Positions 1 through 28,189 of a DNA stretch of 39,366 nt are shown one piece after another. Within the stretch, counting starts at the first letter, position 1, and each line of letters starts with the position of its first letter. Source of the DNA: a virus; the IMG/VR virus record IMGVR_UViG_3300022868_000005, positions 1 to 39,366 of that record, one strand, 5' to 3'. A program made the translations under genes and the position numbers. The notes below the pieces were generated by a model. That model searched no databases and was not told the origin of the DNA. It saw nothing but the letters and a program-made list of their open reading frames with translations.

Positions 1-127
1 AAAATGATGATGGTAAATTATTGCATTCTAATGCTGATAAGCGTAGTTTTGCGGTTTCAAAGATTTTGGAAGAGGATGCAGAGTTTCAGAAAAACTTGTG
101 TATTGTTGAAAATAATCGAAAGCTAGT
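1..127. repeat. Terminal overlap identical to the last 127 bases
   Basis: Bases 1-127 are identical to 39240-39366. The same 127 bases occur a third time inside the window at 37929-38055. A terminal overlap of this exact length is typical of a de Bruijn contig of a circular or circularly permuted molecule cut at a repeat branch point. Removing one copy leaves about 39,239 bp and joins two gene fragments in frame. It is therefore probably an assembly overlap and not a biological terminal repeat. Confidence 0.9.
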
Positions 128-11099: not shown

Positions 11100-11100
11100 T

Positions 11101-11171
11101 GGGATATTGGTGTAGTGATAGCATCTGGCACTTGGACTGCCAAGACCTCAGTTTGATTCTGAGATGTCCCA
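11101..11171 (+). tRNA. tRNA-Pro (UGG)
   Basis: 71 nt cloverleaf. Acceptor GGGATAT pairs with ATGTCCC (one G-U). Anticodon stem TGGCA/TGCCA with loop CTTGGAC gives anticodon TGG. T-stem CTCAG/CTGAG with loop TTTGATT. Discriminator A. Two oddities: the T-loop has T where C56 is nearly universal, and the D-loop (AGTGATA) lacks the usual GG. It carries no encoded CCA. It would serve CCA/CCN codons in late genes. Confidence 0.75.
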
Positions 11172-11172
11172 T

Positions 11173-11243
11173 GCATTCGTAGTTCAACGGTAGAACGTCA
11201 GCCCTGTAAGCTGAAAATCCCAGTTCAAATCTGGACGTCTGCT
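11173..11243 (+). tRNA. tRNA-Thr (UGU)-like gene, imperfect
   Basis: One base after tRNA-Pro. D-stem GTTC/GAAC with loop AACGGTA, anticodon stem TCAGC/GCTGA with loop CCTGTAA (anticodon TGT by position), T-loop TTCAAAT, discriminator T. Faults: acceptor GCATTCG against CGTCTGC has two mismatches (T-C, T-T), position 33 is C instead of T, and the T-stem has one C-A mismatch. It may be decaying, edited after transcription, or a mimic that serves another purpose. Confidence 0.55.
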
Positions 11244-11250
11244 CTTAATA

Positions 11251-13506: not shown

Positions 13507-14535
13507 ATGGTAATTAATATGGAAAAAAGAACTCAAGGTTATGATAATATTGAATTGTTCCAAACGCTTATGAAACAAGGAGACTCTTATATTGCTGTTC
13601 TTAGCGATAATAGTGTTGACCGTGATGGAGAAATCGTTGGTGTTGAAGCATTGAAAACTTTAAGTAAAGATGATGGTCGTGTTAGCATTTTGGTTAATCA
13701 TGAGAACAAAGTTGAGAACATGGTTGGTGAGTGGACTAATCGTCGTGTTAAAAAGATTGGTGAGCATTATGCTTATATTGCTGAACCTAAATGGTTTTTG
13801 AGTAATCCTTTGGCTAGAATGATTAAAGGAATGCTTGATGAGGGTGCAATTATAGGTATTAGTATTGGTGCTATAGTTAAAGATTTTGTGGAAAAAGAAG
13901 TGGATGGTGTTAAAAGAACCGTTTATACTGTTCTTGAACTTTTAGAAGCAAGCTTTGTTGCTATTCCTAGTAATAGGCATGGTCAAGCAATGGCTGTTGC
14001 TAAAATGTTTATTAATAATAAAAAAAGTAAGGAGGTCAATATGGCTAGTAAAGAATATGAAAAATTGAATGTTGTGATTAATGGTTTGAAGAAAGATTTA
14101 GAAGATTTGAAAGAAGTTGTTAATCCTGACAAAAAAGAAGAAGTAGTTGTGGAACCTGAAAAGGTTGAACCTGTTGAACCAGTTGTTGAAGAACCAGTAG
14201 TTGTTGAAGAACCCGAAAAGGTTGAACCTGTTGAACCAGTTGTTGAAGAACCAGTAGTTGTTGAAGAACCCGAAAAGGTTGTAGAACCAATTGTTGAAAC
14301 TGAACCAGTTGTTGAAGCAGAAAAAGGCAAAAAGCCTAAAGAAAAACCAAAAGACGACGAAGACGAAGATGACAAAAAAAAGTTGTTATCCGAAATTGAC
14401 AGTTTAAGAAAAGAAGTTGATAACTTAAAAAAGAGTCCTGTTTTTAAAGCAAGATTCGAGTCAAGTGATGACTTAAACAAAGATATTAAAACAAATGATA
14501 ATACGGGTGAACTCCCTATTATACAAACAAATTAG
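13507..14535 (+). CDS. Prohead protease with C-terminal scaffold region
   Basis: 342 aa. Residues 1-175 are an HK97-type prohead protease: SYIAVLSDNSVDRDGEIVGV, catalytic histidine H65 in LVNHENK, and serine S119 in GISIGA, then LLEASFVAIPSN. Residues 178-342 are scaffold-like: a short coiled coil, a long Glu/Pro/Val-rich segment with two identical 19-residue repeats, a Lys/Asp-rich segment and a second coiled coil. The start at 13507 is favoured over an upstream frame inside the portal gene; ATG 13519 is possible too. It matures the capsid encoded next. An internal start at 14041 would also make the scaffold alone. Confidence 0.85.
   Translation: MVINMEKRTQGYDNIELFQTLMKQGDSYIAVLSDNSVDRDGEIVGVEALKTLSKDDGRVSILVNHENKVENMVGEWTNRRVKKIGEHYAYIAEPKWFLSNPLARMIKGMLDEGAIIGISIGAIVKDFVEKEVDGVKRTVYTVLELLEASFVAIPSNRHGQAMAVAKMFINNKKSKEVNMASKEYEKLNVVINGLKKDLEDLKEVVNPDKKEEVVVEPEKVEPVEPVVEEPVVVEEPEKVEPVEPVVEEPVVVEEPEKVVEPIVETEPVVEAEKGKKPKEKPKDDEDEDDKKKLLSEIDSLRKEVDNLKKSPVFKARFESSDDLNKDIKTNDNTGELPIIQTN
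14041..14535 (+). CDS. Internal in-frame start: capsid scaffold protein
   Basis: ATG 14041 is in frame with the protease and is preceded by AAGGAGGTCAAT, one of the strongest SDs in the window, exactly at the border between protease and scaffold regions. The product would be 164 aa (MASKEYEKLNVVINGLKKDL at the start), acidic and coiled-coil, as expected for a scaffold. This is the arrangement of lambda C/Nu3, in which the scaffold is the C-terminal part of the protease gene read from its own start. The major capsid protein has no N-terminal delta domain, which fits a separate scaffold. Confidence 0.75.
   Translation: MASKEYEKLNVVINGLKKDLEDLKEVVNPDKKEEVVVEPEKVEPVEPVVEEPVVVEEPEKVEPVEPVVEEPVVVEEPEKVVEPIVETEPVVEAEKGKKPKEKPKDDEDEDDKKKLLSEIDSLRKEVDNLKKSPVFKARFESSDDLNKDIKTNDNTGELPIIQTN
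14164..14277 (+). repeat. Two identical 57-bp tandem coding repeats
   Basis: 14164-14220 and 14221-14277 are identical and encode VEPVEPVVEEPVVVEEPEK twice in the scaffold linker. The identity at all third positions indicates a recent duplication. It extends an unstructured acidic/proline spacer. Confidence 0.9.
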
Positions 14536-14551
14536 AAGGTGCAAAAATAAA

Positions 14552-15616
14552 ATGGAAAGTATGTTTAAAAGTGCTCCAAGTGAATTTGAAGCAGACAAAT
14601 GCTATGACATGTTTGGTAGTGCATTCGCTATCGAATTAGCTAGAAGAGATTCTACTGGCGGTTACAGTGTTGAGTATTCAAATCCTTGGACAAAAAATAA
14701 TAGGCTAGATGCCTTAAAGAAACATGTTATGAGTAAAGCAAGTATTGATACTCAAACAGGTGGTGCAGGTACTGTTGGTACAGCTTTAATTCCAGTATAC
14801 GTTGATAGTACAATAGTTAATAGAACAATAAGGCAAACTCCTATGAGAAACTTGACTCCTCGTAGAGCTATTAAAGGTCAAACTTATGATTATATTCCTT
14901 TAACTGCTAAAGGTGGAGCTGCATGGTATGCTGAAAACGCTGCTATCGCTGACCAGGTTGATACTTATGATAGAATAAGTGTTTTTGTTAAGTTTTTGTA
15001 TGCTAAAGGTAGAATTAGTGGACCCTCTATTGCTAGTATGAAAGGTTTTATTGACCCCTCACAACTAGATTTGAGTGTTAAAACTGCTAGTATGATGGAA
15101 GCTGAAGAAGATGCTATTATTAATGGTGATGCAAGTACTAACCCTGAAGAACCAAACGGCTTAATTACTAGTATTACAACTAATACTACAAATTTGTCTA
15201 GTGCTTATCCTACACTTGCACAAATAAGGGCTGAGTTCGCTACTAGTTTCAATGCTAATGGTCAAGTAAACCTTGCTGTTACAGATGCTAGTACACATAA
15301 CTATATTAAAGGTTTACTTCTTGACTTACAAAGACAAGTTACTAATCCTAGTATGGCAACTCTCGGTTTTGGTATTCCAGACGCTTTCGAGTTTGATGGT
15401 GTAATGTTTATTAGAGACCGTTTTATGCCTACAACTAGTGCTAGTCGAAGAATCTTGTTTTTAGATATGAGATACTTTTTTATGGCTGTACTACAAGATA
15501 TGACTTATGAAGAAAAAGCTAGTGAGAACGATACATACGTTTATATTCTAAAAGAGTATATAACTCCTGTTCTTACTTTCGAAGGTGCTTGTACACAAAT
15601 GTACGGTATCTTGTAA
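14552..15616 (+). CDS. Major capsid protein, HK97 fold
   Basis: 354 aa. The layout is HK97-like: N-terminal arm, then SIDTQTGGAGTVGTALIPVY with VDSTIVNRTIRQTPMRNLTP, the E-loop/P-domain region YDYIPLTAKGGAAWYAENAA, the long spine helix SQLDLSVKTASMMEAEEDAI followed by INGD, and C-terminal A-domain strands ending VLTFEGACTQMYGIL. Position directly after protease/scaffold confirms it. The start at 14552 follows AGAAGGTG. No delta domain, in keeping with a separate scaffold. Expected to form the icosahedral shell. Confidence 0.92.
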   Translation: MESMFKSAPSEFEADKCYDMFGSAFAIELARRDSTGGYSVEYSNPWTKNNRLDALKKHVMSKASIDTQTGGAGTVGTALIPVYVDSTIVNRTIRQTPMRNLTPRRAIKGQTYDYIPLTAKGGAAWYAENAAIADQVDTYDRISVFVKFLYAKGRISGPSIASMKGFIDPSQLDLSVKTASMMEAEEDAIINGDASTNPEEPNGLITSITTNTTNLSSAYPTLAQIRAEFATSFNANGQVNLAVTDASTHNYIKGLLLDLQRQVTNPSMATLGFGIPDAFEFDGVMFIRDRFMPTTSASRRILFLDMRYFFMAVLQDMTYEEKASENDTYVYILKEYITPVLTFEGACTQMYGIL

Positions 15617-15631
15617 GGGAGGTAATATAAA

Positions 15632-15913
15632 ATGACAGCAGTAGTAGAAACTTTTAGGAAAATTGCGGTTGCAGGAGACTTAAAAATAATTACTATACAG
15701 ACAAGTGCTGCTTGTGATACAGGACACACTATCGATTTAGGTAGTGATTCTGCTAACGCAAAAGGCGTAGTTATAACTGAAATTTTGAACACTCTTGTTC
15801 AAGATGATGCAGGTGCAGATGAAGAAGCAACTTGGAGTCCATCAACAGGAATTATTACTATGGGAACTTTAGCGGCAACAGGTATTCATAATATAACTAT
15901 TGTGGGGTATTAA
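15632..15913 (+). CDS. Capsid decoration-like protein 1
   Basis: 93 aa, beta-rich, directly after the capsid gene with a strong GGGAGGTAAT SD. It is clearly paralogous to the next gene: both read [T]-x-x-F-R-K-I then a strand (KIITIQTSA), TIDLGSDSANAKGVVI, EILNTLVQDDAGAD and a C-terminal TGIHNITIVGY. Position and size suggest a protein added to the capsid surface; no family is recognised. The pair arose by tandem duplication. Confidence 0.7.
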   Translation: MTAVVETFRKIAVAGDLKIITIQTSAACDTGHTIDLGSDSANAKGVVITEILNTLVQDDAGADEEATWSPSTGIITMGTLAATGIHNITIVGY

Positions 15914-15914
15914 G

Positions 15915-16193
15915 TTGACAGAAGTAACTGAAGTATTTAGAAAAATTGGCGTTTTTGGAAGTTTAAAGTTTATAACAATTCAATGTGCGGCAACAACGGC
16001 AACAAGTTACACTATTGATTTAGATAGTGATGTTACTGATGGTAAAGGTTTAGTGATGACACAAATTTTGAATACTTTAGCACAAGATGATGTAGGTGCA
16101 GATGTTGATGGTACTTTTGACCCGGCAACTGGAATTTACACTTTTGGAACGCTTTCGACAGGTATTCATAACATAACTTTTATAGGATATTAA
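15915..16193 (+). CDS. Capsid decoration-like protein 2 (paralogue), TTG start
   Basis: 92 aa. The TTG at 15915 is chosen because the protein then aligns from its first residue with the previous one (MTEVTEVFRKIGVFGSLKFI against MTAVVETFRKIAVAGDLKII) and GGGGT lies in the previous gene's end. The shared C-terminus is TGIHNITFIGY. DNA identity is clearly reduced, so the duplication is old. It is followed at once by a T-run terminator. Confidence 0.7.
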   Translation: MTEVTEVFRKIGVFGSLKFITIQCAATTATSYTIDLDSDVTDGKGLVMTQILNTLAQDDVGADVDGTFDPATGIYTFGTLSTGIHNITFIGY

Positions 16194-16195
16194 TT

Positions 16196-16309
16196 TATCT
16201 TATTTTTTTTTTTTTAGTGATGACTGTATCATGCCAACTCAGAGTGGTATGGTGAAAAACGATTCATAAAAATTTGAATTGTTATTGTGCTCTGAGGGAG
16301 AAAACAAAA
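16196..16309 (+). promoter_or_regulatory. Terminator and leader region between capsid genes and beta-helix gene
   Basis: A run of 13 T (16203-16215) follows the decoration genes and should terminate the capsid transcript. Then come GTGATGA (16216-16222), CTCAGAG (16238-16244) and its complement CTCTGAG (16290-16296), which can form a 7-bp stem closing a 45-base loop, and an AT-rich CATAAAAATTT (about 16265-16275) that could be a TATA box for the 16310 gene. GAGGGAG is the SD. The GTGATGA box and the CTGA inside the 3' arm recall C/D-box sRNAs, but the flanks do not pair. Confidence 0.45.
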
Positions 16310-17329
16310 ATGGGTAATGGTTTTAGAACAATTCCGAGTGGTGGAATAGCTGCTCCTCCGTACACTAACGGACCTTATAGTTTTAGTGAAGATATAACTT
16401 TTGCAAATGCTTCTCTTGGTGGAAGTGGTGAAGGTGCAACTTGGTATGTTGATGGTACTAATGGTGCTACAACAAATGATGGTAAAAGTTGGGGTAAAGC
16501 TTTTAGTACAATACAGTTAGCTGTTACGGCTGCTGGTCCTGGTGACACAATTTATGTTACTGCAAAAGACTTAACTGACTTTACTGGTGACCCTACTAGT
16601 TATGCTGAAACAATTATTATTCCTGCTGCAACAAGTAGTTTATCTATTATTGGTGTTAGTCGTGGTAACACTCAAGGTGGTTTGCCTCAAATAAAGATTG
16701 GTGCTGGTACAACTGCTATGCTTACTGTTAGGGCGCCTGGTTGTTTAATAGCAAATTTGGGTTTTAATGGTGCTAGTAGTACTGGTGGTGGAATATTGCT
16801 TGATGATGATTACGCTGCTAAGTGCGCTTTTGGTACTATGATTGTTGGTTGTCATTTTAAGAATTGTAAAGTTACAACAACTGTGGCTGCATCAGGTGGA
16901 GCAATTTATACAACTAGTGCTGGTAACTGTTGGCAATGTAGTTTTGTAGGAAATCATTTCTATAAAAACGAGATAGATATTTGTTTAGTAGGAACAAGTA
17001 ATACGGTGCCACAGGATTGGGTAATTAAAGATAATTTGTTTAGTGGTCCTGCAGCAAACGTAAATTGTAATTTATACCTTGCTGGTGGAAGTGGAGTGAA
17101 TGGTGTTATTATTGATAATAATATTTTTCCTTGTGACCCGGCACTTAGTTCAGGTGATGAGAATGTTAATTGTGAATTGACTGGTTGTGTGGGAGTATAC
17201 TCTAATAACATGCATGGATTTACGGGTTTAACACTTGGTGATGGAACAGTTACTGGTGGAGTGATTCCGACAACAGTTTTCATGGTGGCTAATTATCAAG
17301 AAGACGCAATAATAACAAGAACTAGTTAA
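16310..17329 (+). CDS. Right-handed beta-helix protein, virion surface candidate
   Basis: 339 aa. WYVDGTNGATTNDGKSWGKA, then FSTIQLAVTAAGPGDTIYVT is the typical entry to a parallel beta-helix of the pectate-lyase type, followed by coils with recurring NN/GN turns (IVGCHFKNC, FVGNHFYKNEID, VIKDNLFSG, VIIDNNIF). No lyase catalytic set is evident, so binding or decoration is more likely than cleavage. It lies between capsid decoration genes, which fits a head spike or fibre. The start at 16310 follows GAGGGAG; an upstream in-frame start at 16274 lies in the leader. Confidence 0.7.
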   Translation: MGNGFRTIPSGGIAAPPYTNGPYSFSEDITFANASLGGSGEGATWYVDGTNGATTNDGKSWGKAFSTIQLAVTAAGPGDTIYVTAKDLTDFTGDPTSYAETIIIPAATSSLSIIGVSRGNTQGGLPQIKIGAGTTAMLTVRAPGCLIANLGFNGASSTGGGILLDDDYAAKCAFGTMIVGCHFKNCKVTTTVAASGGAIYTTSAGNCWQCSFVGNHFYKNEIDICLVGTSNTVPQDWVIKDNLFSGPAANVNCNLYLAGGSGVNGVIIDNNIFPCDPALSSGDENVNCELTGCVGVYSNNMHGFTGLTLGDGTVTGGVIPTTVFMVANYQEDAIITRTS

Positions 17330-17851: not shown

Positions 17852-17868
17852 GGAAAGGAGTGTGTAAA

Positions 17869-20418
17869 ATGATGAAAAAGTTTTTTTTATCAATAATAGT
17901 GTTTATAATAATATTATCGATTAGTGTTTGTGCTGTGGATTTTACTCCTCAGGGAAATATTAATCTTCGTAGTGTTTACTCTATTATTAATGGGGTGGAC
18001 ATTAATGCTTCTAACTTTTATGGTAACTTTACTGGTGACCTTACCGGTACTGCTAGTATTGCTACTCTTTGGGCTAGTGTAACAAGTTTTGCTAGTGATT
18101 GGTTTTATGATAGTGGTAACGTTTTAAGTTTTAATGAAACATTAATGAATTCTACTATTGATGCTAGAAATAATGATACTAAGTATAGTGCTGGTGACTA
18201 CTTGTACCTTAATAGTACAGAGTTTAATGTTAACGAATCTGATTTGAATAATACTATTGATGCTCGTAGCAATTTTGATTCTAAATGGGCTTTAGATGGT
18301 ACTTGGATTTATAATAAAAGTGATAGTCTTAGTTTTAATACTACTAGTGGAGATAATAGGTATGCTAATATTACTGATTTAGCATCAGAAATAAGTCTTC
18401 AAGCTGCTAATAATGTTACTCAAGCAACTTTAATAAATTTAAAAATAAATACTTCTAGTGAAGGAGACTTAAACGTTAATCACTCTACTACTTCCGGTAT
18501 TGCTGATACAGCTACTACTTGGGATGGTGAAACAAGTCAGGCTGATTTGAATGTTAATAGTAGTGATTATTGGGATTCTTTAAACACTCCTAGTGATATT
18601 GGAAGTGATGATATCACTGATGATGGAACTTGGATAGTTGTAGGTGATGAAGCTAATCTTAATGTTAACTCTAGTGATTACTGGGATGACCTTGGTTCAC
18701 CTAGCGATATAAACGCAGGGGATATTACTGATGATGGTACTTATTATAATACAACTGCTAATATTAATGCTACAGGTTATAGTGTTACAGCTGATAACTT
18801 TTATGGTAGTTATGATTGGACTAGTGGTGATACTTGGAACACTTTTGATGGTACAGAACTATTGTTTAATGAATCCAAATTGGAAGTTAATTATTTTAAT
18901 GCTAGTTCTGTTGATGTCGTAACTGGTACTGGGACAGGGAATTTGGCAGATATTCAAACGTATAATGGTGTTCCTTATAATGTAACCGAAACAAATTCTG
19001 ATTATGAATTAATAGTCAATTTTACTGGTGTTACAGAGTTTTCAACATTAATAATAAGACATAAAACTAATTTGGATTCAGGACACGCAACGTCTATTCA
19101 AATATGGGATTATTCAGATTCTTCATGGGAAGATTATGGAATATTAACTGAATCAACAACTTACAAAATTAAAACATTAGGTGTTTATAATTATGCAGAC
19201 CATGTAAATGGTAGTAATCCTATCAGGGTTAGGTTTTATCAAGTGGCTGGTCCCCCTAATACTGCTCATGTTCATAATTTTGATTGGGTAATATTGAGTA
19301 AAGGTTTTGGAACACCTGTTGGGCAAGAGATTGACCCTTTAAGTATTCATAAAGACGGTAATAATGAATTAACTGCTAATTGGGATGCGGGAAGCTATAA
19401 TATAACTGCAACAAGTTTTATAGGAAATTTAACAGGAACATCAGACATTGCAACAACTTGGGACTCAGAAACGAGTCAAGCAGACTTAAATGTTAATAAT
19501 AGTGATATGCTTGAAGGAACAGACCTTGGAACACTTACAGATGGAAAAACTTGCATTTATGATTTGTCTAATACAGAAATTGATTGTGATACTACACTTA
19601 CAGTTGGAACTGTTACGAGTGTGGCTACAGATGATATTTATTTGACTGGTGGAGCTATAACTAGTTCTGGAACTATAACTTTTAATGAAACAGTTCTTAA
19701 TGTTACTATTGATGCTAGAGACACTGACACAACTTATACTGCTGGTAATGGAATAAATATTTCGGGCACAACTTTTAGTGTTGCAGGAAACACTGCGTTA
19801 ACACAAGACTCTGATGGTCTTTCAGTTACTGCCGACGGTATTGGTGATACCCAGTTAACGTATAATACGGGACAAGCATTAACCACAACCAGTAATCCAG
19901 AATTTGCAACATTAAACACGGGACAAGGAAATTATGAACTTTATTCTATGGACCAAGATGTTTTGGAAAAAAGTGAAGTGGTGTTTGCTCAAATAAACGT
20001 GACTGACAATTTAACACTTAATAATAATGTTTGGCTTAGAGCATTAAATAACGCTGGAACAAGTTTTGTTAATATGTTTAAAGTTAATACTGATGATGTT
20101 ATCGAGGCTGGTGCCAATTTTAGTATTGGGGCTATTAGAATTGTTGAAGACTCGGGAGTTATTAATCTTGTTGACATGAGTGTTTCTTCAACACCCGCTA
20201 TAAACACTGAAGAAGGTTACAATTTTAGTATTGATGGTGAACCTTTTTTAAAAATATTTGCTGGTGCGGATGGTAGTGGTGGTTTAAAAGATAAAGCTAT
20301 TTGGATTAGTGATAATGTTAGTGTTAAGTTCGATAATGGTGCTAAAATAAGTGTTAATTCTACTTGCATGTCAATGTATAGTCCTAATGGAACTGGAATT
20401 ATTGATGTGTGTGATTAA
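17869..20418 (+). CDS. Secreted fibre-like repeat protein with signal peptide
   Basis: 849 aa from ATG 17869 (AAAGGAG upstream). The N-terminus MMKKFFLSIIVFIIILSISV then CAVDF is a signal peptide. The body is Asn/Ser/Thr/Asp-rich with many N-glycosylation sequons and repeated modules: DLNVNSSDYWDSLNTPSDI, NLNVNSSDYWDDLGSPSDI and DLNVNNSDMLEG, each preceded by TWD-GETSQA-like strands, plus NxTIDAR and TTYTAGNGINISGTTFSV, which recall trimeric tail-fibre shafts. The NVNSSDYWD module is familiar from DPANN archaeal secreted proteins. A Sec signal on a fibre is unusual for a tailed virus: it may be displayed on the host surface or be acquired by virions at exit. Confidence 0.7.
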   Translation: MMKKFFLSIIVFIIILSISVCAVDFTPQGNINLRSVYSIINGVDINASNFYGNFTGDLTGTASIATLWASVTSFASDWFYDSGNVLSFNETLMNSTIDARNNDTKYSAGDYLYLNSTEFNVNESDLNNTIDARSNFDSKWALDGTWIYNKSDSLSFNTTSGDNRYANITDLASEISLQAANNVTQATLINLKINTSSEGDLNVNHSTTSGIADTATTWDGETSQADLNVNSSDYWDSLNTPSDIGSDDITDDGTWIVVGDEANLNVNSSDYWDDLGSPSDINAGDITDDGTYYNTTANINATGYSVTADNFYGSYDWTSGDTWNTFDGTELLFNESKLEVNYFNASSVDVVTGTGTGNLADIQTYNGVPYNVTETNSDYELIVNFTGVTEFSTLIIRHKTNLDSGHATSIQIWDYSDSSWEDYGILTESTTYKIKTLGVYNYADHVNGSNPIRVRFYQVAGPPNTAHVHNFDWVILSKGFGTPVGQEIDPLSIHKDGNNELTANWDAGSYNITATSFIGNLTGTSDIATTWDSETSQADLNVNNSDMLEGTDLGTLTDGKTCIYDLSNTEIDCDTTLTVGTVTSVATDDIYLTGGAITSSGTITFNETVLNVTIDARDTDTTYTAGNGINISGTTFSVAGNTALTQDSDGLSVTADGIGDTQLTYNTGQALTTTSNPEFATLNTGQGNYELYSMDQDVLEKSEVVFAQINVTDNLTLNNNVWLRALNNAGTSFVNMFKVNTDDVIEAGANFSIGAIRIVEDSGVINLVDMSVSSTPAINTEEGYNFSIDGEPFLKIFAGADGSGGLKDKAIWISDNVSVKFDNGAKISVNSTCMSMYSPNGTGIIDVCD

Positions 20419-20420
20419 AA

Positions 20421-23400
20421 ATGGTTGATACGAAGAAGTTGATGATTGTATTATTTTTTCTTTTATTATTTGGTATTATAGTGTACGCTGAGTTATCGGT
20501 TTCTAACGTTGTTTTAGTGTCTACTTCAGGTAATAATTTAAGCATTGATAATTTGAGTGTATCGTTTACTTCTGGAAATAATTATAATGTTACAGATTGG
20601 AGAAAAGAAGGAGTGAGTATAGCAGTTTTAAATATGCCATTTGAACTTAGTGATTCTACTACTACTGTAAAGGATTATACAACGTTTGAAAATAATGGAA
20701 ATGTAACAGGACATTTACCTACTTGGTCTTCTTCAGGTAAAATCGGAGGATGTTACGATTTTGATGGAACTGATGATTATATTCAATTACCAAGCATGCC
20801 GAGTATAGAAGAACCAACAGCTATTACTGTTTCTGCTTGGATTAAAACCAGTACACAAGGTTCTGATAGAATAATAGAAAGTAGAGAGACTAGTTCTCCA
20901 AATAATGGTTGGACTTTATGGATAGATGATAACCCCGTAGGTCAAATTAATTTTTTTGTAGACACTGATTTAGGAAGTGTTAATGGTATTGTTTCTGAAG
21001 ATATTACTGATGATGAATGGCATCATGTTGTTGGAACTTGGGATGGCACTACAGTAAACGCTTATGTTGATGGTTCTGTAGGAACACCTGGAAGTATTGG
21101 TGGAACTATTACTAATGCTCAAAACCCAAGAATAGGAGTGGGCACACAAGCAACAAGTCTTTTTTATACTGGGTTGGTCGATGAATTTAAAATTTATAAT
21201 TATTCTTTAAGTCCTGAGCAGATTAATGTTTCTTATCAGGCTGGTTTGGCTAATCATTCTTTGCAAACTATTGTTTCTGAGGAGACTGTTAAGGGAGATA
21301 ATTGGACTGTTTCAGTTACACCTGTTAATAGTACATATAGTGGAATTGCTGTTATAAGTAATGTTTTGACTATTAAGAATTCTCCCCCATCTATTCCTAC
21401 TCAGAATAGTCCTGTGAATGATTCAAATATTGATATTAATTTTACTTTGTTGAATTGTTCTGGTTCAATAGATGAAGATGGTGATGCAATTGTTTATTAC
21501 TATTTTGGAGATAATTCTACTGGAGAAACTTTACTTGGTGTAAATGATACTTCAACTGCTTATAATTGGACTGGATTAATAACTGGTCAAACTTATTACT
21601 GGAAGTGTTTAGCTAATGCTGGAATTTATAATTCTTCTAATACTAGTATTTGGCAGTTTAATTATACTGGTGATTCTCCTATTATGAATACAGTTAATAT
21701 TTTACCTGTAATCGTAAGTTTTACTGATGACTTATTAGGTTATTGTAACGCTAGTGATGTTGATGGTAATAATTTAAGTTATTATTATGAATGGTATAAA
21801 AATGGAGTTTTGAATGTTAGTGGTTATAATAATAATTCAGGTGATGGTTTCACACAAAATATTAAATATAATATTAATAATCTTAGTAGTTCTTTGACTT
21901 CTGAGACTGAGAATTGGACTTTTAATTGTAGAGCAAATGACGGTTTATTAAACAGTTCTTGGTTAAATACAAGTATAATAATAGGACCAATTATAACAGA
22001 CCCCACACAAAATAGTCCTTTAAATAGTTCAAGTGTTGATACTTCAGTATATACTTTACTTAATTGTTCTGGTTCAGTAAATACATTAGGTAATCCTCTT
22101 ACTTATTATTATTATGGTAGTAAGGATTCTACTAATTTAGTTTTATTAGGAACTAATAATACAGGTACAGCACTTAATTATACTCTTGATTTATCTGTTA
22201 CTGATACTTATTATTGGTATTGTTTGGCTGGTGATGGTAATTATAATAGTTCTAATAGTAGTGTTTGGAATTTTAAAGATGATGGAATGTTTACTTACGC
22301 TGTTTTAGATGTTGTTAATAATTCTGCTTCAAGTAGTATAGATAATGTTTTTAAACAAGCAATTGTATATAATTATTATGGTGTATATAATCGTTCTTAT
22401 TTTACTTACAGTTCTCCTCCTTATGGTTCAGGACTACCTTCTAATGATGGTATTGATGTTCATATTTCTTATTACGATTTAGATACTAATACAATGGGTG
22501 GTGATTATATATTACCTAATGCTTTGGAACATGTAATAGATACCCATAGAATGGGAGTAATATCTAGTGATGATAGTGGTAATATTCTTGTTTGTTACGA
22601 GAAGCTTTATGGTACAGGTTCTAATCAGCATAATTCTCCAATGATGTTTTATAAAAGTAATTCTCCAGAAACTATAACAGATGCAGCTACATGGTCTGGT
22701 GTAGAAGTTGGTAGTCATACATCATATCCTCATCTTGCTTGGAAGTCTAATTTTGGTGATAATGGTAAATTTGTTTTTACTGCTAGATTTGGGTATAGTT
22801 CCTCTGACCATAGTAGAATTATTTATTATGAATCTGAAAATGGTATTAATTGGACACCATTAATTGCAGGATATGATGGTGTTGGTAGAATTATTGTAGA
22901 TGTTGATGATGGTACAAATGTTTGGGCTTATCATCATTTTCCAGCACAAAGTAAAACAGACCCTTTAGTTATAGGTATTAATCCTAATTTTAAAACTTTA
23001 CCTTACTCTAATTATAATAGAGATTATTACATAAAATCTTATGATGGTGGTAATTGGTCTAATATGAATGGTAGTTTTATCAAAGATGTAGACGTTGACG
23101 GAGCAGTTACTTTTGATGAATTAGAAGCATATTGTAATATAGTAAATTATAGTGCAACTACAAATCAACCTTTAATGAGAGGTTTTAGTACAGGAAGTGA
23201 TGATAAATTATATACTTCATGGACTTTAATTAATTCAACGGGAGGAGTTCTTGATTATTATATTAAATATTTTAATGGAACTGCTTGGGGAGAGGATATT
23301 AATATTAGTAAAATATTTTCTACACCACCAGGTTCTTCTAGTGAATTTTCAGAATCTTTATATGTAGGAACAAGAGCATTTTTTGAAATACCTGATAGTA

Positions 23401-23879
23401 ATGCAATTGACATTATAACATCATCACTTGATATTATTAATGAAGTTGAAGGTGATAATTCTACAATGAAAGTTCAAAGATGGAGAACTGATAATTCTTT
23501 TACAGATTTTACTTTAATGGCAGAATCAAAATTGAATAATAGGTTGAATTGGATTATACCAACTTTTAATTGGAGAGATTATATCAGTAATGATTGGACT
23601 TTTTTAGTTGGTTGGGAAGAATCTTATGGAGCTGGATTAAATCTTACAATGTATAAATTTATGGAGATTATTAATTCTTGTATTTATAGTGGAAGTGGAG
23701 ATTGGATTATTACTAATAATTGTAATGCAACAATAAATACTGATGTTTTAGGTAATGAATTTACTTTAACAAGTGGTTATACTTTTTACACAGCGTTTAA
23801 TATTACTAATATGAGTAAAGTTACGGTTAATGGTGGTAGGCTTACTATTAGTGGTGCAAGGTTTGGGGTGAAAGGATGA
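20421..23879 (+). CDS. Large secreted LamG / Ig-like / propeller-like surface protein
   Basis: 1152 aa. Signal peptide LMIVLFFLLLFGIIVYA near residues 7-23. Residues about 60-275 are a concanavalin-like LamG domain (VLNMPFELSD ... YDFDGTDDYIQLP ... WHHVVGTWDGT ... VDEFKIYNYSLS). Residues about 320-620 are three Ig/FN3-like repeats, two with the shared pattern LLNCSGS..TYYWKCLA..YNSSN. Residues about 670-1060 resemble a BNR-type beta-propeller found in glycan-active proteins (MGVISSDDSGNILVCYE, SYPHLAWKSNFGDNGKFVF). The 'VLNMPFE' LamG with Ig-like repeats is what I know from DPANN archaeal adhesins. Probably binds glycans; enzymatic activity is not shown. It overlaps the next gene by ATGA. Confidence 0.75.
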   Translation: MVDTKKLMIVLFFLLLFGIIVYAELSVSNVVLVSTSGNNLSIDNLSVSFTSGNNYNVTDWRKEGVSIAVLNMPFELSDSTTTVKDYTTFENNGNVTGHLPTWSSSGKIGGCYDFDGTDDYIQLPSMPSIEEPTAITVSAWIKTSTQGSDRIIESRETSSPNNGWTLWIDDNPVGQINFFVDTDLGSVNGIVSEDITDDEWHHVVGTWDGTTVNAYVDGSVGTPGSIGGTITNAQNPRIGVGTQATSLFYTGLVDEFKIYNYSLSPEQINVSYQAGLANHSLQTIVSEETVKGDNWTVSVTPVNSTYSGIAVISNVLTIKNSPPSIPTQNSPVNDSNIDINFTLLNCSGSIDEDGDAIVYYYFGDNSTGETLLGVNDTSTAYNWTGLITGQTYYWKCLANAGIYNSSNTSIWQFNYTGDSPIMNTVNILPVIVSFTDDLLGYCNASDVDGNNLSYYYEWYKNGVLNVSGYNNNSGDGFTQNIKYNINNLSSSLTSETENWTFNCRANDGLLNSSWLNTSIIIGPIITDPTQNSPLNSSSVDTSVYTLLNCSGSVNTLGNPLTYYYYGSKDSTNLVLLGTNNTGTALNYTLDLSVTDTYYWYCLAGDGNYNSSNSSVWNFKDDGMFTYAVLDVVNNSASSSIDNVFKQAIVYNYYGVYNRSYFTYSSPPYGSGLPSNDGIDVHISYYDLDTNTMGGDYILPNALEHVIDTHRMGVISSDDSGNILVCYEKLYGTGSNQHNSPMMFYKSNSPETITDAATWSGVEVGSHTSYPHLAWKSNFGDNGKFVFTARFGYSSSDHSRIIYYESENGINWTPLIAGYDGVGRIIVDVDDGTNVWAYHHFPAQSKTDPLVIGINPNFKTLPYSNYNRDYYIKSYDGGNWSNMNGSFIKDVDVDGAVTFDELEAYCNIVNYSATTNQPLMRGFSTGSDDKLYTSWTLINSTGGVLDYYIKYFNGTAWGEDINISKIFSTPPGSSSEFSESLYVGTRAFFEIPDSNAIDIITSSLDIINEVEGDNSTMKVQRWRTDNSFTDFTLMAESKLNNRLNWIIPTFNWRDYISNDWTFLVGWEESYGAGLNLTMYKFMEIINSCIYSGSGDWIITNNCNATINTDVLGNEFTLTSGYTFYTAFNITNMSKVTVNGGRLTISGARFGVKG

Positions 23880-24436
23880 GTAAAAGAATTTATTCTCAAA
23901 CAATTATTAAATGGGCTAAAATAGTTGGAATTAGTAGCACATCAATCATTTTTTTAATATTTTCATACTTATCATTGACAGGTTGTATAACAATAAATAG
24001 TGTGTCTGGTGACATGGTTTGTGCTGGAACAATAGAAGAACCTTGTTATGCTTATGTTAGTTTCACTGCGAAAGAGGATGTGTTTATTTATCCTACTGGT
24101 TATGACCCTTGGGGTAGAAGTGTTGGTTTCGATTTTGACCCTGCACCAAAAGAAGCTATTTTGCAACGAAGTTGGGGTGAGGGTTGGAGAACTATCGATT
24201 TGAGCAAAACTTGGAGTGTTAAGGTTAAGTATGCTATCAAGTTTAGTAAAGGAACAACTTACAATATTAGAATAAAAGCTTACAAAAATAATCCTACCGA
24301 TGTTATTAAGTGGGGTTTTGGTAGTGACGAGTTTGGAATAAACGCTTATGAAGACCCTTATTGGTTAAGTGTTGATGATTCTGCAAGTGTCAATATTGTT
24401 ATTAATAGTTCATCACAGTATAATTGGGTTATATAA
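23876..24436 (+). CDS. Membrane-anchored extracellular protein (186 aa)
   Basis: One hydrophobic segment at about residues 17-36 (GISSTSIIFLIFSYLSLTGC) preceded by basic residues, then a beta-rich outer domain with aromatic motifs (IYPTGYDPWGRSVGFDFDP, GEGWRTIDLSKTW). LTGC resembles a lipobox. It is translationally coupled to the LamG protein (ATGA), so the two probably act together at the cell surface or in a membrane-linked complex. No family is recognised. Confidence 0.6.
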   Translation: MSKRIYSQTIIKWAKIVGISSTSIIFLIFSYLSLTGCITINSVSGDMVCAGTIEEPCYAYVSFTAKEDVFIYPTGYDPWGRSVGFDFDPAPKEAILQRSWGEGWRTIDLSKTWSVKVKYAIKFSKGTTYNIRIKAYKNNPTDVIKWGFGSDEFGINAYEDPYWLSVDDSASVNIVINSSSQYNWVI

Positions 24437-24437
24437 A

Positions 24438-24680
24438 ATGGTTAATGGAGATAAAGATTATCAAAACTGGAAAGTTAGTCAAGCAGAGTTCAGGGGTTTT
24501 ATGAAAGCAAAAGTTGAAGACATTTGCAATAAGCTTGATGTTGTTAGTAAGCATAATGGTGAACAAGATACTAGAATTAATAGTATGGAAAAGAGTTTGA
24601 TTGCCGTCAAAATTAAAGGCGGAATATTTGGAACGATTGGAGGATTAATTGGTGGATTCGTTAGTGGTTTCATAAAATAA
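24438..24680 (+). CDS. Coiled-coil protein with C-terminal hydrophobic tail (holin/XhlA-like)
   Basis: 80 aa. Residues 10-55 form a helix/coiled coil (RGFMKAKVEDICNKLDVVSK, then QDTRINSMEKSLIAVKIK) and residues 58-80 a Gly-rich membrane helix (GGIFGTIGGLIGGFVSGFIK). This order, with the 'R-x-x-x-ME/LE' heptads, resembles XhlA-type phage lysis-associated proteins and other tail-anchored viral proteins. It may be the holin, or it may anchor the surface cassette. The start is one base after the previous stop, with no clear SD. Confidence 0.55.
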   Translation: MVNGDKDYQNWKVSQAEFRGFMKAKVEDICNKLDVVSKHNGEQDTRINSMEKSLIAVKIKGGIFGTIGGLIGGFVSGFIK

Positions 24681-25047: not shown

Positions 25048-26634
25048 ATGGTGAATACGATAAGACATGAAGATATAACAGGTGCGAGCTTGACAGGTAG
25101 TGATGGTGATGCTAATAGAACTTATAGTTTAGATAATACTCCTGCAATAATTGGTGGTTTTAATATTATAATATCTAATGCTGCACTTCAATATAGTGTT
25201 GATTATACTTTGTCTAATAGTGTTTTAACATTTATTAATCGTGTTTGGGATAACCAAAATATCACTCTTAATTATTTCACTCTTGGCGGAACCGATAGTG
25301 TTAGTAATACTTATACTACAACTTTAAAAGTTGCTGAAACTGTTGGACTTAGCATTTTGGTTGTTAACGAAAATGTTGGAACAGGCACTAGTAGTGCTAC
25401 AAGTTTTGATTTAGATAATGGTCAAGTGCTTGCTAGCTCTTACACTCTTAAATATAGTTCTGGAACTAGTGATAACTCTTTCACAGAGCTTACAGAAACA
25501 ACTCATTATGTTATGAGTAAAGATGGTGGAACAATAGAGTTAACAAGTGCTGGTGTCACAGCTCTTTCGACTAACGTTTTGTTTGCTGATTATTCTTATT
25601 CTAAAGACATTAGTGATTCAGAATTGGCTTACATTATTAGTTTGGCTGAAGCAGAAGTTGATAAACTTACTGGCAACTATTGGGGTACTGGTTCTGATGA
25701 TTATGAATTGTTTGATGGTCAAGCAAATTTTCAATATCCTACTACTGATTACCCTTACGCTAATGATTGGGATGAGCCTGACAGGTTTGTTCTTAGCAAA
25801 AAAGGAATACTTAATGTTACTCGTGTTAGCGTTTTAGCTACAAATGTTGGTCTTGGAAGTGTTCAAAGTTATGATAGTACTCTTAGTTCTTACGCGAATA
25901 ATACTAGTGAAGCTAACAGTTTTGAAGGTACGAGTTTTAAACCTTTTGGAAGCACTACTGCTAATGGTGATTACTTGTATGTTGGAAGCATTTACAAGTT
26001 TTTAGGGTTAACAATAAACCTTTTTACTGAAGGAGTTACTACTGGTACTAACACGATTGAGTATTGGAATGGTAGTGCTTGGACTGCTCTCACACCCACA
26101 GAAAGCGTTACGGGAGTTCTCGATATTGAGTCTAGTGGAAAGCTTAGTTGGGATAGTCTTGATTCTTGGAGTAAAACAAGTGTTAATGATAGTGACTCTT
26201 TATACTTTATACGAGTTGTTGCAAACACAACTTATAGTACTGAAGCAAAAATAGATAATGTTTATATGGACCAGGATAGCGTTTTTAGTTATAATGTTCC
26301 TTTATTCAAAGTAAGAATTGATGGTTCAGAAATTATTGTTAATGATTATCGTTTTCCTAGAGGAAGAAACAATGTGCGTATAGATTATAGTCATGGTTAC
26401 TCTAGTGTTCCTACTAGTGTTGAAGAACTTACTAGTGTGGTTGCAGGAATAGTTGTTTTTGTTAGGATTACTGGAGGAAGTTTTGACACGCCTAGTGTGT
26501 ATACTCTTCCTGAGGGAAGTGTTAGTGTTGGTCAGGTTTACGTTAATGTTCGTGAGGCTGTTAACCAGTTAGAAGCTAGAAAAAATAGTTTGCTTGATAG
26601 TGTTGGAAGAAAGATGGATATTTTTGTTTCTTAG
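25048..26634 (+). CDS. Head-tail adaptor with inserted beta domains
   Basis: 528 aa. Residues 1-80 and about 105-186 are two beta-sandwich modules of the type 'x-L-x-x-x-x-DYT-x-x-x-x-x-x-x-F'. Residues 187-215 (ISDSELAYIISLAEAEVDKL then TGNYW) look like the first helices of gp6/gp15-type head-tail adaptors. Residues 250-267 and 416-455 carry matching strands (VLSKKGILNVTRVSVL; NVRIDYSHGYSSVPTSVEEL), with residues 275-410 a large beta insertion (GTNTIEYWNGSAWTALT). The C-terminal helix fits the adaptor family. Adaptors are usually about 100-150 aa, so this one is greatly enlarged. It attaches to the portal. Confidence 0.65.
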   Translation: MVNTIRHEDITGASLTGSDGDANRTYSLDNTPAIIGGFNIIISNAALQYSVDYTLSNSVLTFINRVWDNQNITLNYFTLGGTDSVSNTYTTTLKVAETVGLSILVVNENVGTGTSSATSFDLDNGQVLASSYTLKYSSGTSDNSFTELTETTHYVMSKDGGTIELTSAGVTALSTNVLFADYSYSKDISDSELAYIISLAEAEVDKLTGNYWGTGSDDYELFDGQANFQYPTTDYPYANDWDEPDRFVLSKKGILNVTRVSVLATNVGLGSVQSYDSTLSSYANNTSEANSFEGTSFKPFGSTTANGDYLYVGSIYKFLGLTINLFTEGVTTGTNTIEYWNGSAWTALTPTESVTGVLDIESSGKLSWDSLDSWSKTSVNDSDSLYFIRVVANTTYSTEAKIDNVYMDQDSVFSYNVPLFKVRIDGSEIIVNDYRFPRGRNNVRIDYSHGYSSVPTSVEELTSVVAGIVVFVRITGGSFDTPSVYTLPEGSVSVGQVYVNVREAVNQLEARKNSLLDSVGRKMDIFVS

Positions 26635-26661
26635 GCAACACTTTAAATAATAAGTTAATCA
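26633..26661 (+). promoter_or_regulatory. Late promoter copy 2, upstream of neck/tail genes
   Basis: Identical over 29 bases to 11251-11279, overlapping the adaptor stop codon. The TTTAAATAAT box (26642-26651) is about 27 bases before ATG 26673, with no SD: a leaderless mRNA is expected. It divides the structural genes into two transcripts. Confidence 0.7.
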
Positions 26662-26672
26662 AAAAGAGTAAT

Positions 26673-27050
26673 ATGGTAACAACACACGTTTTCAAACTAG
26701 GTATTACTAATCGTCCTTTTGAAAAAATGATTGACGCTTTCAGTAAAAACTTGGCTTTCGTTGTTGTTACTAAGACTATTAAAAACATTAGTGGTGATGA
26801 AGTTTTGAGTGATGCTAGTAGCGTTACTATTCAAGGTCCTTTTTTTCGTAAAGAAAGTGATTGGAGTCAGGATAATGAAGGTTTGTTTCAGGGTGCTGAT
26901 GCGGTTTTGCTTGTTAAATCAGGTGTTGATATTAATAAGGATGATAAGGTAACTTATGATTCAGAAACTTATCGTGTTGAAAAGGTTGTTCCTAGACGGC
27001 TTGGAAAAATATTTTTTTATAGGGTTGCAAGATTGTTCTTGAACTCTTAA
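26673..27050 (+). CDS. Neck / head-closure-like protein (125 aa)
   Basis: Beta-rich: LAFVVVTKTIKNISGDEVLS, GPFFRKESDWSQDNEGLFQG, then ADAVLLVKSGVDINKDDKVT and the C-terminal SETYRVEKVVPRRLGKIFFY. The 'V-x-x-D-x-V-x-Y-x-x-x-x-Y-R-V-x-x-V' ending is typical of SPP1 gp16-type stopper/head-closure proteins. Position between adaptor and tail-completion genes agrees. First gene of the second late transcript. Confidence 0.65.
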   Translation: MVTTHVFKLGITNRPFEKMIDAFSKNLAFVVVTKTIKNISGDEVLSDASSVTIQGPFFRKESDWSQDNEGLFQGADAVLLVKSGVDINKDDKVTYDSETYRVEKVVPRRLGKIFFYRVARLFLNS

Positions 27051-27065
27051 ACTCTCAGAATAGAG

Positions 27066-27093
27066 TATAAATTGAAAACCTGGAGGTTAAAGA
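27066..27093 (+). promoter_or_regulatory. Possible TATA element and strong SD before the leader peptide
   Basis: TATAAATT at 27066-27073 is followed by TGGAGGTT (27081-27088), one of the best SD sites in the window. A small stem ACTCT/AGAGT (27051-27055, 27062-27066) precedes it. Whether the TATA is used is unclear because the upstream late promoter already covers the region. Confidence 0.35.
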
Positions 27094-27150
27094 ATGAGTG
27101 TTAAATTAATGTTTATTAAATTTTCTTCTAGTTGGTGGTTTTTAATATGA
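27094..27150 (+). CDS. 18-aa hydrophobic leader peptide coupled to the tail-completion gene
   Basis: MSVKLMFIKFSSSWWFLI follows the strong SD TGGAGGTT by five bases, and its TGA overlaps the next gene's ATG (ATGA at 27147-27150). The downstream gene has only a weak SD, so the peptide probably serves translational coupling. It could also be a tiny membrane peptide. Confidence 0.5.
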   Translation: MSVKLMFIKFSSSWWFLI

Positions 27151-27530
27151 GCGAAATAGTTGGTTTTGAAAAGTTTATTGCTGGAATCGCTAACGATTTG
27201 AACACTGAGTTAGTAATTGCTTGTCCTGTTGATACTGGTAACTTAAAACAACATATTAGGGTTGAAGCTAATGGTAATAAAATAGTTGTTTACATGCCTG
27301 AGTACGCTTTGTATTTAGAGTATGGTACTGGCATTTATGGTCCTTTGAAAAGACCTATTACTCCTAAAGAGGCTAAAGCTTTAAAGTTTAGTATTGGTAA
27401 TAAAACGGTTTTTGCTAAGAGTGTTAAAGGAATGACTCCTCAACCATTTATTAGACCTGTGTTTTTTTCAAAATTTAAAAAGATTGTTCAACAAAACGCT
27501 GAACTACACTTACAAGAGGTGGAAGTATGA
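27147..27530 (+). CDS. HK97 gp10-like tail-completion protein
   Basis: 127 aa. CPVDTGNLKQHIRVEANGNK, then YMPEYALYLEYGTGIYGPLK and MTPQPFIRPVFF are the three hallmarks of the HK97 gp10-like family (PVDTG-x-L, Y-A-x-x-x-E-x-GT, PFIRPA). It acts at the neck, joining tail tube to head. The start at 27147 is chosen for its overlap with the leader peptide; an in-frame start five codons upstream (27132) is possible. It overlaps the next gene by ATGA. Confidence 0.85.
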   Translation: MSEIVGFEKFIAGIANDLNTELVIACPVDTGNLKQHIRVEANGNKIVVYMPEYALYLEYGTGIYGPLKRPITPKEAKALKFSIGNKTVFAKSVKGMTPQPFIRPVFFSKFKKIVQQNAELHLQEVEV

Positions 27531-28189
27531 CTATAACAAATTTGTTAGATGAAGAACTTATTAAACAAGAGTTCGTAGTGTTTTTAAGGAATCAAGATGT
27601 TTTAACTATTACTCAAAGGGGTGTTACTACTCAGAGTGATACTGGAACTTTTAGTGCTGCAAGTTCTCACACGTTGGCTACTAGTCCGACTCTTGTTAAG
27701 AATGTTCGTAGTATCGTTGTTGGTGGAGTAACTCTTAAACTAAAAACTAATTACACTGTTGCTTATGATACGGGAGTTATAAGTTTTGTTGCAGCACAAA
27801 CTGGTGCTTACACTATTGGTTATGATACTGGAGCTACAGACAAAATATTTCCTGATTTTCCTAAAACAGAATTAAAAATTAGTAGTTATCCTCGTATTAG
27901 TGTTGATATTACAAGCATTGTTACTGACGATAACGATTTGAGTGGTTCTAGTAATATTAGTGGTATTTTAATAAGTGTTTATGTTTATGGTATTGGTAAA
28001 GAGCAAACGATGGATATGATGAAAAGTATTAGACAAAGCATATTGGTGAACAAAAAAAGTTTTTTTTATGTTCGTTATGTTACTCCTATTAGTGTTGGTC
28101 CAATGATTAATGAACCTTTTAGGGGTACAAAAGTTTTTACGAAAGTGTTGGAGTTAAGTGCTCCATTAAATGTTGAGGTAATTAGTTAA
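27527..28189 (+). CDS. Tail terminator-like protein with inserted beta-sandwich
   Basis: 220 aa. N-terminal helix and C-terminal part (PRISVDITSIVTDDNDLSGS, then ISVYVYGIGKEQTMDMMKSI and KVLELSAPLNVEVIS) fit tail-terminator/completion proteins at this place in the gene order. Residues about 40-105 (SIVVGGVTLKLKTNYTVAYD then TGVISFVAAQTGAYTIGY) are a beta-sandwich module also seen in the adaptor and the hub. It would cap the tail tube at the head side. Confidence 0.6.
   Translation: MTITNLLDEELIKQEFVVFLRNQDVLTITQRGVTTQSDTGTFSAASSHTLATSPTLVKNVRSIVVGGVTLKLKTNYTVAYDTGVISFVAAQTGAYTIGYDTGATDKIFPDFPKTELKISSYPRISVDITSIVTDDNDLSGSSNISGILISVYVYGIGKEQTMDMMKSIRQSILVNKKSFFYVRYVTPISVGPMINEPFRGTKVFTKVLELSAPLNVEVIS

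Follow-up and report, generated by a model that had tools for sequence, protein, structure and literature searches.

Four consecutive open reading frames (ORF1 to ORF4) on the plus strand stand between the head and connector genes of the virus record IMGVR_UViG_3300022868_000005 in IMG/VR, the whole 39,366 bases of which we refer to as the window. ORF1 and ORF2 encode a fibre-like protein and a LamG protein, both with signal peptides, and ORF3 encodes a signal-anchored membrane protein; an exported location of these products is, in our view, highly probable. Judging from the sequences, ORF1-ORF3 may well constitute a late, membrane-tethered glycoprotein adhesin complex on the infected cell. 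Virus-encoded surface glycoproteins are known, and what is new is their occurrence in an unexpected virus group. The fibres of tailed viruses are taken as cytosolic, whereas the fibre family described here has both cytosolic and exported forms, as its lectin partner probably does too.

The fibre and LamG proteins with signal peptides

ORF1 (17869..20418, plus strand; ATG start, with a GTG at 17860) encodes a fibre-like protein of 849 aa with a C-terminal Cys pair. Its signal peptide of 22 aa (17869..17934, plus strand) has a V-C-A site and abuts a conserved mature N-terminus (VDFTPQGNINLR), the protein starting MMKKFFLSIIVFIIILSISVCA/VDFTPQG, where the slash marks the cleavage (...SVCA/VDF) as read by eye. 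Signal peptides were judged from the sequence by hydropathy and cleavage motif, not by SignalP. Homologues of ORF1 were found by phmmer as the genes directly 5' of the anchor gene in four related loci (L014, L018, L025 and L033), and through these members the pre-anchor gene of L023 joins the same cluster. V-x-A stands one residue ahead of DF in all five window-type fibres compared. Complete exported fibres have an even number of cysteines (8 of 8) and mostly a C-terminal Cys pair (6 of 8); one signal-less fibre also has an even cysteine number. ORF1 thus carries the signal peptide that a cytoplasmic fibre should lack, yet it is homologous to signal-less fibres, namely those of L125 (39% over 72 residues, E 3e-7) and L004 (50% over 26 residues, E 2.8e-4).

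ORF2 (20421..23879, plus strand) follows after 2 nt and encodes a protein of 1152 aa. It starts MVDTKKLMIVLFFLLLFGIIVYA/ELS, a signal peptide of 23 aa with a V-Y-A site (20421..20489, plus strand; ...IVYA/ELS, cleavage read by eye). Residues 115-269 form a LamG, or concanavalin-like, domain (20763..21227, plus strand; PF13385, Laminin_G_3) with a Pfam E of 1.8e-27 and 96.8 bits against a curated threshold of 27.6. Two copies of a repeat of about 100 aa follow (about residues 329-431 and 531-632; 21405..22316, plus strand; 49% identity, E 4e-25), which look Ig/FN3-like by eye only, with no Pfam model matched. The anchor-fused proteins of L018 and L025 share with ORF2 a C-terminal domain (23640..23843, plus strand in the window; phmmer i-E 7e-10 and 2e-8, computed against five chosen sequences), placed close to their own C-termini, and by eye two further proteins end with it, the anchor protein of L016 and the LamG protein of L023. 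The C-terminal half as a whole had no Pfam or PDB sequence match, and its single-sequence AlphaFold2 (AF2) model reached a mean confidence (pLDDT) of 30. The only loci in viral contigs that matched the region described earlier as a propeller, a region that may be BNR-like, were 100% identical and are therefore the same virus. Contigs labelled with two other samples, 3300005939 and 3300025698, likewise show 100% identity in those proteins that matched.

The original prediction had described ORF1 as a fibre-like protein with a signal peptide, and the classical signal peptide and the family homologues bear this out, as does the ATGA overlap (-4) for the proposed coupling of ORF2 and ORF3. From its LamG/Ig/propeller-like description of ORF2 the LamG domain was recovered, the Ig part comes down to two tandem repeats, and the propeller had no match by Pfam or PDB sequence search.

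Sequon statistics

A hydrophobic N-terminus alone is weak evidence of export, and we therefore examined N-glycosylation as its consequence. In a comparison of 39 window ORFs, each with 5,000 shuffled versions of its own sequence (p floor 2e-4), ORF1 with 36 N-x-S/T sequons (19.4 expected) and ORF2 with 46 (23.8 expected) both reached the floor and were the only two ORFs significantly enriched, the next best p being 0.07; the remaining 37, pooled, had 69 sequons for 73.7 expected. For the window together with 18 related loci, an exported class of 36 proteins was then selected automatically, the rule being a signal peptide or an anchor; it admits a few false members such as a protease ORF with an overlong start. 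This class had 1015 sequons for 449.9 expected. Amino acid composition fails to explain the excess, because reversed and shifted motifs were not enriched in the same proteins: the reversed motif occurred 418 times (455.5 expected), N-[ST] 431 times (463.7), N-xx-[ST] 376 times (463.0) and D-x-[ST] 285 times (314.7). N-P-[ST] was not depleted (17 for 13.4).

The 171 other ORFs had 588 sequons for 475.0 expected, eight of them being above 1.6-fold, and four of these eight (in L016, L028, L029 and L030) resemble further surface proteins. Among the controls, 17 genes of the HGTV-1 structural region had 64 sequons for 55.5 expected and none had an N-terminal hydrophobic segment, and the LamG fibre of HRTV-25, which is without a signal peptide, had 19 for 19.5. 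The Campylobacter sequon has an acidic residue at -2. D or E at this position was not enriched here (96 for 111.1 expected; 985 sequons in 24 proteins), and the sequon is therefore not Campylobacter-like.

The proteins show what would be looked for in exported, N-glycosylated archaeal surface proteins, namely a signal peptide or anchor, and sequons above chance where the reversed motif is not. We strongly infer that ORF1 and ORF2 cross the membrane and would be N-glycosylated at N-x-S/T by the host oligosaccharyltransferase. Comparison of sequons with reversed sequons also offers a simple test for exported viral glycoproteins.

ORF3 and the anchor family

ORF3 (23876..24436, plus strand) is the founder of the anchor family and, as predicted, is membrane-anchored: a basic N-tail (KRIYxxTxxKWAK) and one hydrophobic helix are followed by a beta-rich ectodomain of about 130 aa (AF2 model pLDDT 80.8). 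The protein is unnamed by Pfam, PHROGs and NCBIfam, and its ectodomain had no match at E<=0.001 in Foldseek searches of the PDB and BFVD (best VIA Z 5.0). Used alone as a query, ORF3 recovered two distant relatives besides its own virus, and a four-sequence profile found 20 anchor loci; with a single count for L014, and without duplicates and the window's own virus, these come to 18 distinct loci. Most loci have an N-tail like K-R-I-Y...K-K-W, from which L030 and L032 deviate, followed by the hydrophobic helix and the domain of about 130 residues. The family is apparently undescribed, and the anchor domain of L025 matched nothing among annotated phages and plasmids.

In 13 of the 18 loci the anchor domain heads a protein of at least 500 aa, up to 1844 aa (L031), and these large proteins are sequon-rich in all cases except L025 (10 for 7.7 expected); in L014, L020, L023, L029 and L030 the anchor is short or truncated where the contig ends. 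Ectodomains of anchor proteins include NosD/beta-helix, CBM96, DUF2341 and FGE-like domains. Some viruses have the adhesin fused to the anchor, while others (the window and L023) encode the two separately, and by this Rosetta-stone argument ORF2 and ORF3 would work together.

In the ORF3 alignment the mean frequency of the commonest residue was 0.66 in the tail, 0.52 in the hydrophobic segment, 0.74 in residues 38-80 and 0.63 in residues 81-170; we had considered the cytosolic tail as the best-conserved part, which is ruled out by the higher score of residues 38-80. ORF3 was also considered as a lipoprotein and rejected, the cysteine of the window's TGC motif being missing from all 18 other alignment rows. 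A class III (pilin-like) signal in the anchor is conceivable.

The anchor protein of L033 (10001-14104) has a C-terminal sulfatase-modifying-factor-like domain. This fold is used by targets of diversity-generating retroelements, which we considered for this reason and rejected, a reverse transcriptase being present in none of 20 records. Long sequon-rich proteins whose N-terminal hydrophobic segment differs in type occur in L155 (5983-10773; 49 sequons for 19.4 expected; Kelch) and L161 (11515-14613; 45 for 21.3), beside genes of about 130 and 485 aa, and are perhaps a second anchor family.

Genomic position and distribution

The four genes are contiguous, ORF3 and ORF4 being separated by 1 nt. 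Genes for the terminase, a portal with a Mu-F-like part, an S78 protease and the HK97-type capsid lie 5' of ORF1. The major capsid gene (14495..15616, plus strand; Pfam Phage_capsid 4.9e-12; major head protein in PHROGs) forms the left border, and its product had no match among annotated phages. Adaptor, head-closure, neck and tail genes lie 3' of ORF4; the adaptor, head-closure, neck and tail-completion genes of the right border (25048..28189, plus strand) have homologues 3' of the anchor in L018 and L025. Coordinates, strand and flanking genes all agree with four consecutive genes between head and connector genes, as had been claimed, and the suggested check of synteny found the arrangement kept in relatives. 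With 18 further virus loci that hold the anchor, the module is viral and recurrent.

ORF4 (24438..24680, plus strand; ATG at 24438) stands somewhat apart. It encodes 80 aa with a C-terminal glycine-rich membrane segment and is weakly XhlA-like (phrog_1193, E 0.0021; XhlA, PF10779, E 0.065 with 13.8 bits against a Pfam threshold of 34.7, which is not reached). By phmmer it had no homologues in the loci examined, and by eye small ORF4-like proteins occur in relatives both with and without the cassette, so that the earlier view of the four genes as one unit is not supported.

A fibre gene lies directly 5' of the anchor in 8 of the 18 loci, three of which (L016, L020 and L026) have a second family in this position, the L026 gene being 5'-cut and the L020 one only 92 aa long. 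Fibre and anchor together occupy the head-neck slot in the window, L014, L018, L023, L025 and probably L033. In other loci the anchor lies deeper in the tail region, by eye several times after a probable tape-measure gene and a gene of about 135 aa, and in L017 it adjoins a homologue of the window's 507-aa tail-region gene. In 13 of 18 loci the anchor has structural genes nearby on its own strand, and Pfam shows structural genes in L016 too.

Searching by capsid gave 13 related loci. One is the same virus and three end too soon (L005, L009 and L012, the last not inspected), which leaves nine that are informative, although L006 and L007 look like one virus. Only L014 has an exported fibre and an anchor; L004 and L008 have a signal-less fibre start; the other six (L003, L006, L007, L010, L011 and L013) have neither fibre nor anchor, and the cassette is therefore dispensable.

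A fibre family with and without signal peptide

The DNA pattern for DF[TI]PQG[DN]I[DN]L matched 25 stretches in viral contigs, of which 24 were analysed (one, 5'-cut, was left out) and 21 differ from one another in their first 60 mature residues. Nineteen of the 21, including the window's own virus, L018, L025 and L033, have a signal peptide, and together they hold 556 sequons for 257.0 expected and 219 reversed ones. The other two begin MSDFTPQG, and 9 or 15 codons 5' of the motif the frame is closed by a stop. It had been proposed as a counter-test that homologues might lack the signals: most retain them and two do not. Signal-less forms of the fibre are found in L121/L125/L135 and L133, and the L004/L008 fibres, which share the GNINLK part, begin MYLDSKGNINLKSRY with an in-frame stop just upstream.

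In L125 the signal-less fibre gene overlaps the next gene, for a LamG protein (Pfam 1.2e-15) that also has no signal peptide; its homologue is the LamG protein that L023 exports (5.1e-21), and the aligned starts are ...VHA/ALIDDLIAYYKFDESSG in L023 and M-ALIDSCVAYWKMDESSG in L125. The 5' neighbour of this pair is the adaptor gene also of L018 and L025 (E 1.7e-89 and 6.8e-106), and its 3' neighbours are the connector, neck and tail genes of L018/L025 (e.g. 1.9e-83, 1.1e-76). L018 and L025, close relatives of L125, thus hold their exported fibre and anchor in the slot where L125 has its signal-less pair, and a virion-type fibre/lectin pair therefore appears to alternate between the cytosol and the cell exterior. 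The L125-type signal-less fibre and lectin are probably ordinary virion parts. In the tail region of L125 there is also a divergent anchor, 24% identical to ORF3 over 167 columns (E 1e-8).

Possible role of the cassette

According to our proposal, ORF1-ORF3 would be made late, together with the capsid and neck proteins, a timing suggested by gene order. The ORF1 fibre and ORF2 lectin would be exported via Sec and glycosylated, and ORF3 would hold the adhesin at the membrane, which we strongly infer because relatives fuse the same anchor to an adhesive ectodomain. Least certain is the following step, in which the displayed fibre, with its virion-type specificity, might occupy or cross-link surface glycans or receptors. 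Such a coating would bar progeny and rival virions from re-adsorbing to the doomed cell, and the displayed complex could keep neighbouring cells attached for the following round. This cell-surface reading is favoured by the large ectodomains on membrane anchors.

Several observations speak against it. The receptor-occupying role is itself conjecture from the sequences. Fibre and anchor genes occupy virion slots, in the head-neck or the tail region, which fits a virion part equally well, and the mature N-terminus of the exported fibre is also the N-terminus of the signal-less one, which suggests that a virion partner was retained; slots and common N-termini together favour a virion reading more than expected. 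The sequon test has its exceptions too. ORF3 has no excess (1 for 1.4 expected), the L025 anchor protein has little (10 for 7.7), and 61 ordinary fibres used as a control lie slightly above 1 (732 for 623.8), two of them having an N-terminal hydrophobic segment. Conversely, the signal-less L125 fibre has 27 sequons for 17.0 expected (p 0.004), so that a sequon excess does not always go together with a signal peptide; here the peptide may have been lost recently. The original prediction offered remodelling of the cell surface or decoration of virions; signal peptides, anchor and sequons with their controls uphold a cell-surface location, and the signal-less fibre forms make the virion option stronger than had been held.

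That option, which we regard as possible though somewhat unlikely, takes the proteins as a virion appendage finished outside the cytoplasm: exported, glycosylated, possibly disulfide-bonded, held by the anchor, and joined to the particle through the DFTPQG N-terminus at egress. It draws on the head-neck slot of the genes (or the tail region in other viruses), on signal-less fibres whose start is the mature N-terminus, an in-frame stop lying a short way upstream, on the signal-less fibre/LamG pair of L125 between the adaptor and neck genes that flank the fibre and anchor of L018/L025, and on the even cysteines and C-terminal Cys pairs of the exported fibres. It is burdened by the need for joint release of fibre and virion at lysis, and a membrane-less tailed particle offers no obvious place for anchored proteins that reach 1844 aa; moreover, we know of no tailed virus that adds fibres after export. 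One may speculate further, and more doubtfully, that an archaeal tailed lineage builds a virion part outside the cytoplasm, from fibre and lectin subunits that certain relatives produce in the cytosol, by Sec export, N-glycosylation, parking on the anchor and joining to the head-neck or tail tip at egress, with the conserved cytosolic tail of the anchor facing the assembling particle and the signal peptide acting as the switch that, in evolution, turns a virion fibre into a surface glycoprotein or back. If true, this would be a tailed virus with a maturation step like that of spike glycoproteins.

Acquired host adhesin genes, carried as cargo that alters the host surface (conversion) and does not serve the virus cycle directly, would account for the patchiness among capsid relatives (full cassette in one of nine informative loci), for ectodomains that vary widely between viruses and for LamG in 5 of 14 control genomes. 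We think this improbable in view of the same-strand structural genes near most anchors (13 of 18 loci, and L016 by Pfam), of 18 further virus loci with the anchor against one 90-aa piece in species genomes (two short patterns), and of the lack of a recognised integrase among the 30 window ORFs scanned with Pfam and/or PHROGs. More improbable still is a lysis or egress module, in which lectin and fibre would loosen the host envelope and ORF4 would aid the holin. The weak match of ORF4 to XhlA/haemolysin families, under the curated cut-off, speaks for it; against it, ORF4-like small proteins (by eye) occur in cassette-less relatives, and no hydrolase domain was recognised in ORF1-ORF3. Finally, fibre-like sequence and an Asn/Thr-rich composition would be expected of ordinary tail fibres made in the cytoplasm, whose hydrophobic N-termini and sequons would both have arisen by chance. 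This we hold to be very improbable, given reversed and shifted motifs at or below expectation in the same proteins, a signal peptide in a conserved cleavage context in 19 of 21 distinct ORFs, and an anchor family that is membrane-bound.

Relation to known systems

Cor/Llp-type superinfection-exclusion lipoproteins of tailed phages are virus-made, exported and thought to act at the surface of the infected cell. They are small, single, receptor-blocking proteins, unlike the large fibre/lectin/anchor set described here, and the TGC motif of ORF3 is not conserved in its homologues. The spikes of archaeal pleomorphic viruses are exported, membrane-anchored, N-glycosylated adhesive proteins, but on virions that have a membrane, whereas to our knowledge tailed virions have none. 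For the fibres of hafunaviruses we know of no anchor partner. Tail-fibre adhesins of hafunaviruses, which are haloarchaeal tailed viruses (PMC8651126; HRTV-25 LamG protein gp7), resemble the present proteins, so far as that source describes them, in being large beta-rich/LamG adhesins beside structural genes with an expected role in recognition; they differ in that HRTV-25 gp7 is without a signal peptide or sequon excess, and the main text of PMC8651126 does not contain the terms 'signal peptide', 'transmembrane' or 'secreted'. In spindle-shaped Thermococcales viruses, a preprint (PMC12934983) describes membrane ConA/LamG lectins with a transmembrane helix and fast-changing domain content. Those lectins are core genes, whereas here tailed HK97 viruses have a separate exported fibre; the anchors can be compared by that description only. 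Tailed proviruses of Woesearchaeales, a DPANN order, have been published as WATPVs (PMC11705971), and are set beside the window by description only, the main text having no mention of 'adhesin', 'LamG' or 'signal peptide'.

In the literature searched, which lay outside most subscription journals and bioRxiv, there was no description of the anchor family or of a fibre family with and without signal peptide. The cassette raises a testable question, whether tailed viruses of archaea give the infected cell a new surface or complete their virions outside the cell, and the anchor profile together with the DFTPQG motif provides a sequence handle for finding such viruses in metagenomes.

Host

The host is probably archaeal. 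N-x-S/T enrichment fits archaeal N-glycosylation, and the terminase of L016 is closest to that of the haloarchaeal virus HGTV-1 (34.6%). The record G026 holds an exported DFTPQG fibre, an anchor elsewhere, and a group II chaperonin (Cpn60_TCP1, 3.1e-97) for which the top sequence matches in the PDB are group II chaperonins and thermosomes; this thermosome-type gene lies at 7456-8853 of L158, in a tailed-virus contig. In tRNA-Pro, C1:G72 marks bacteria and G1:C72 archaea. The window's tRNA-Pro(UGG) (11100..11172, plus strand; Rfam alignment) has an acceptor stem with G1:C72 and not the C1:G72 of phages T4 and pVp-1.

Other observations weigh against an archaeal host. The tRNA-Pro of the archaeal control HGTV-1 has U1:A72, unlike the window, so that the window's pair supports 'not bacterial' at most. 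The window terminase has 50% identity with its counterpart in a Bacteroides phage, and among annotated entries it matches Bacteroidota or unnamed phages best. A scan of species genomes returned one 90-aa anchor piece (L035, 10001-10273), 199 bp from a contig end in a metagenome-assembled genome of a 'PVC group bacterium', this being one of the two genomes of that phylum in the scan. The other genes on its contig look ordinary bacterial by eye, and we take the piece as misassembly or transfer and not as a sign of a bacterial host. The original prediction had presupposed a DPANN host; no DPANN genome matched in this single scan, where a miss says little because two short patterns were used. Replication markers pointed to neither kind of host: in 15 records, MCM was found once (E 8.7e-6, under the cut-off), and PCNA and DnaB were not found.

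Other features of the window

Between the capsid gene and ORF1 lies a gene for a 351-aa protein without signal peptide (16274..17329, plus strand), whose phmmer matches in L025 (3.1e-163) and L026 (9.2e-96) both come from anchor-bearing loci. The two similar genes of about 95 aa directly 3' of the capsid gene (15632-16193) perhaps encode decoration proteins, and by eye small genes like this pair also stand 3' of the capsid gene in several relatives. The tRNA-Pro(UGG) gene is side by side with a tRNA-Thr(UGU) gene (11100-11244) between the terminase and portal genes. A scan for promoters and terminators gave counts not above chance (58 against 52.4, and 4 against 3.0). The region 3' of the tail genes encodes a 271-aa protein (34278-35093) with a weak transglutaminase-like peptidase match (E 0.045). 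A 272-aa protein (35972-36790) has metallophosphoesterase-like motifs by eye (GDEH, GNHE and GHVH) and no match in a Pfam scan.

The 317-aa product of 6356-7309 consists nearly entirely of 6-residue repeats (VSGNAWVYGDA...), with an 18-nt repeat in the DNA, and is a YdcK beta-solenoid (Pfam 3.1e-58), bactofilin-like. A direct repeat of 300 nt at 37179/38055, together with the copies of the 127-base repeat described next, would represent terminal redundancy or an assembly tangle. A direct repeat of 127 bases stands at both termini of the window (1-127 and 39240-39366), with a further, internal copy at 37929-38055; with this end repeat the genome is perhaps closed or terminally redundant.

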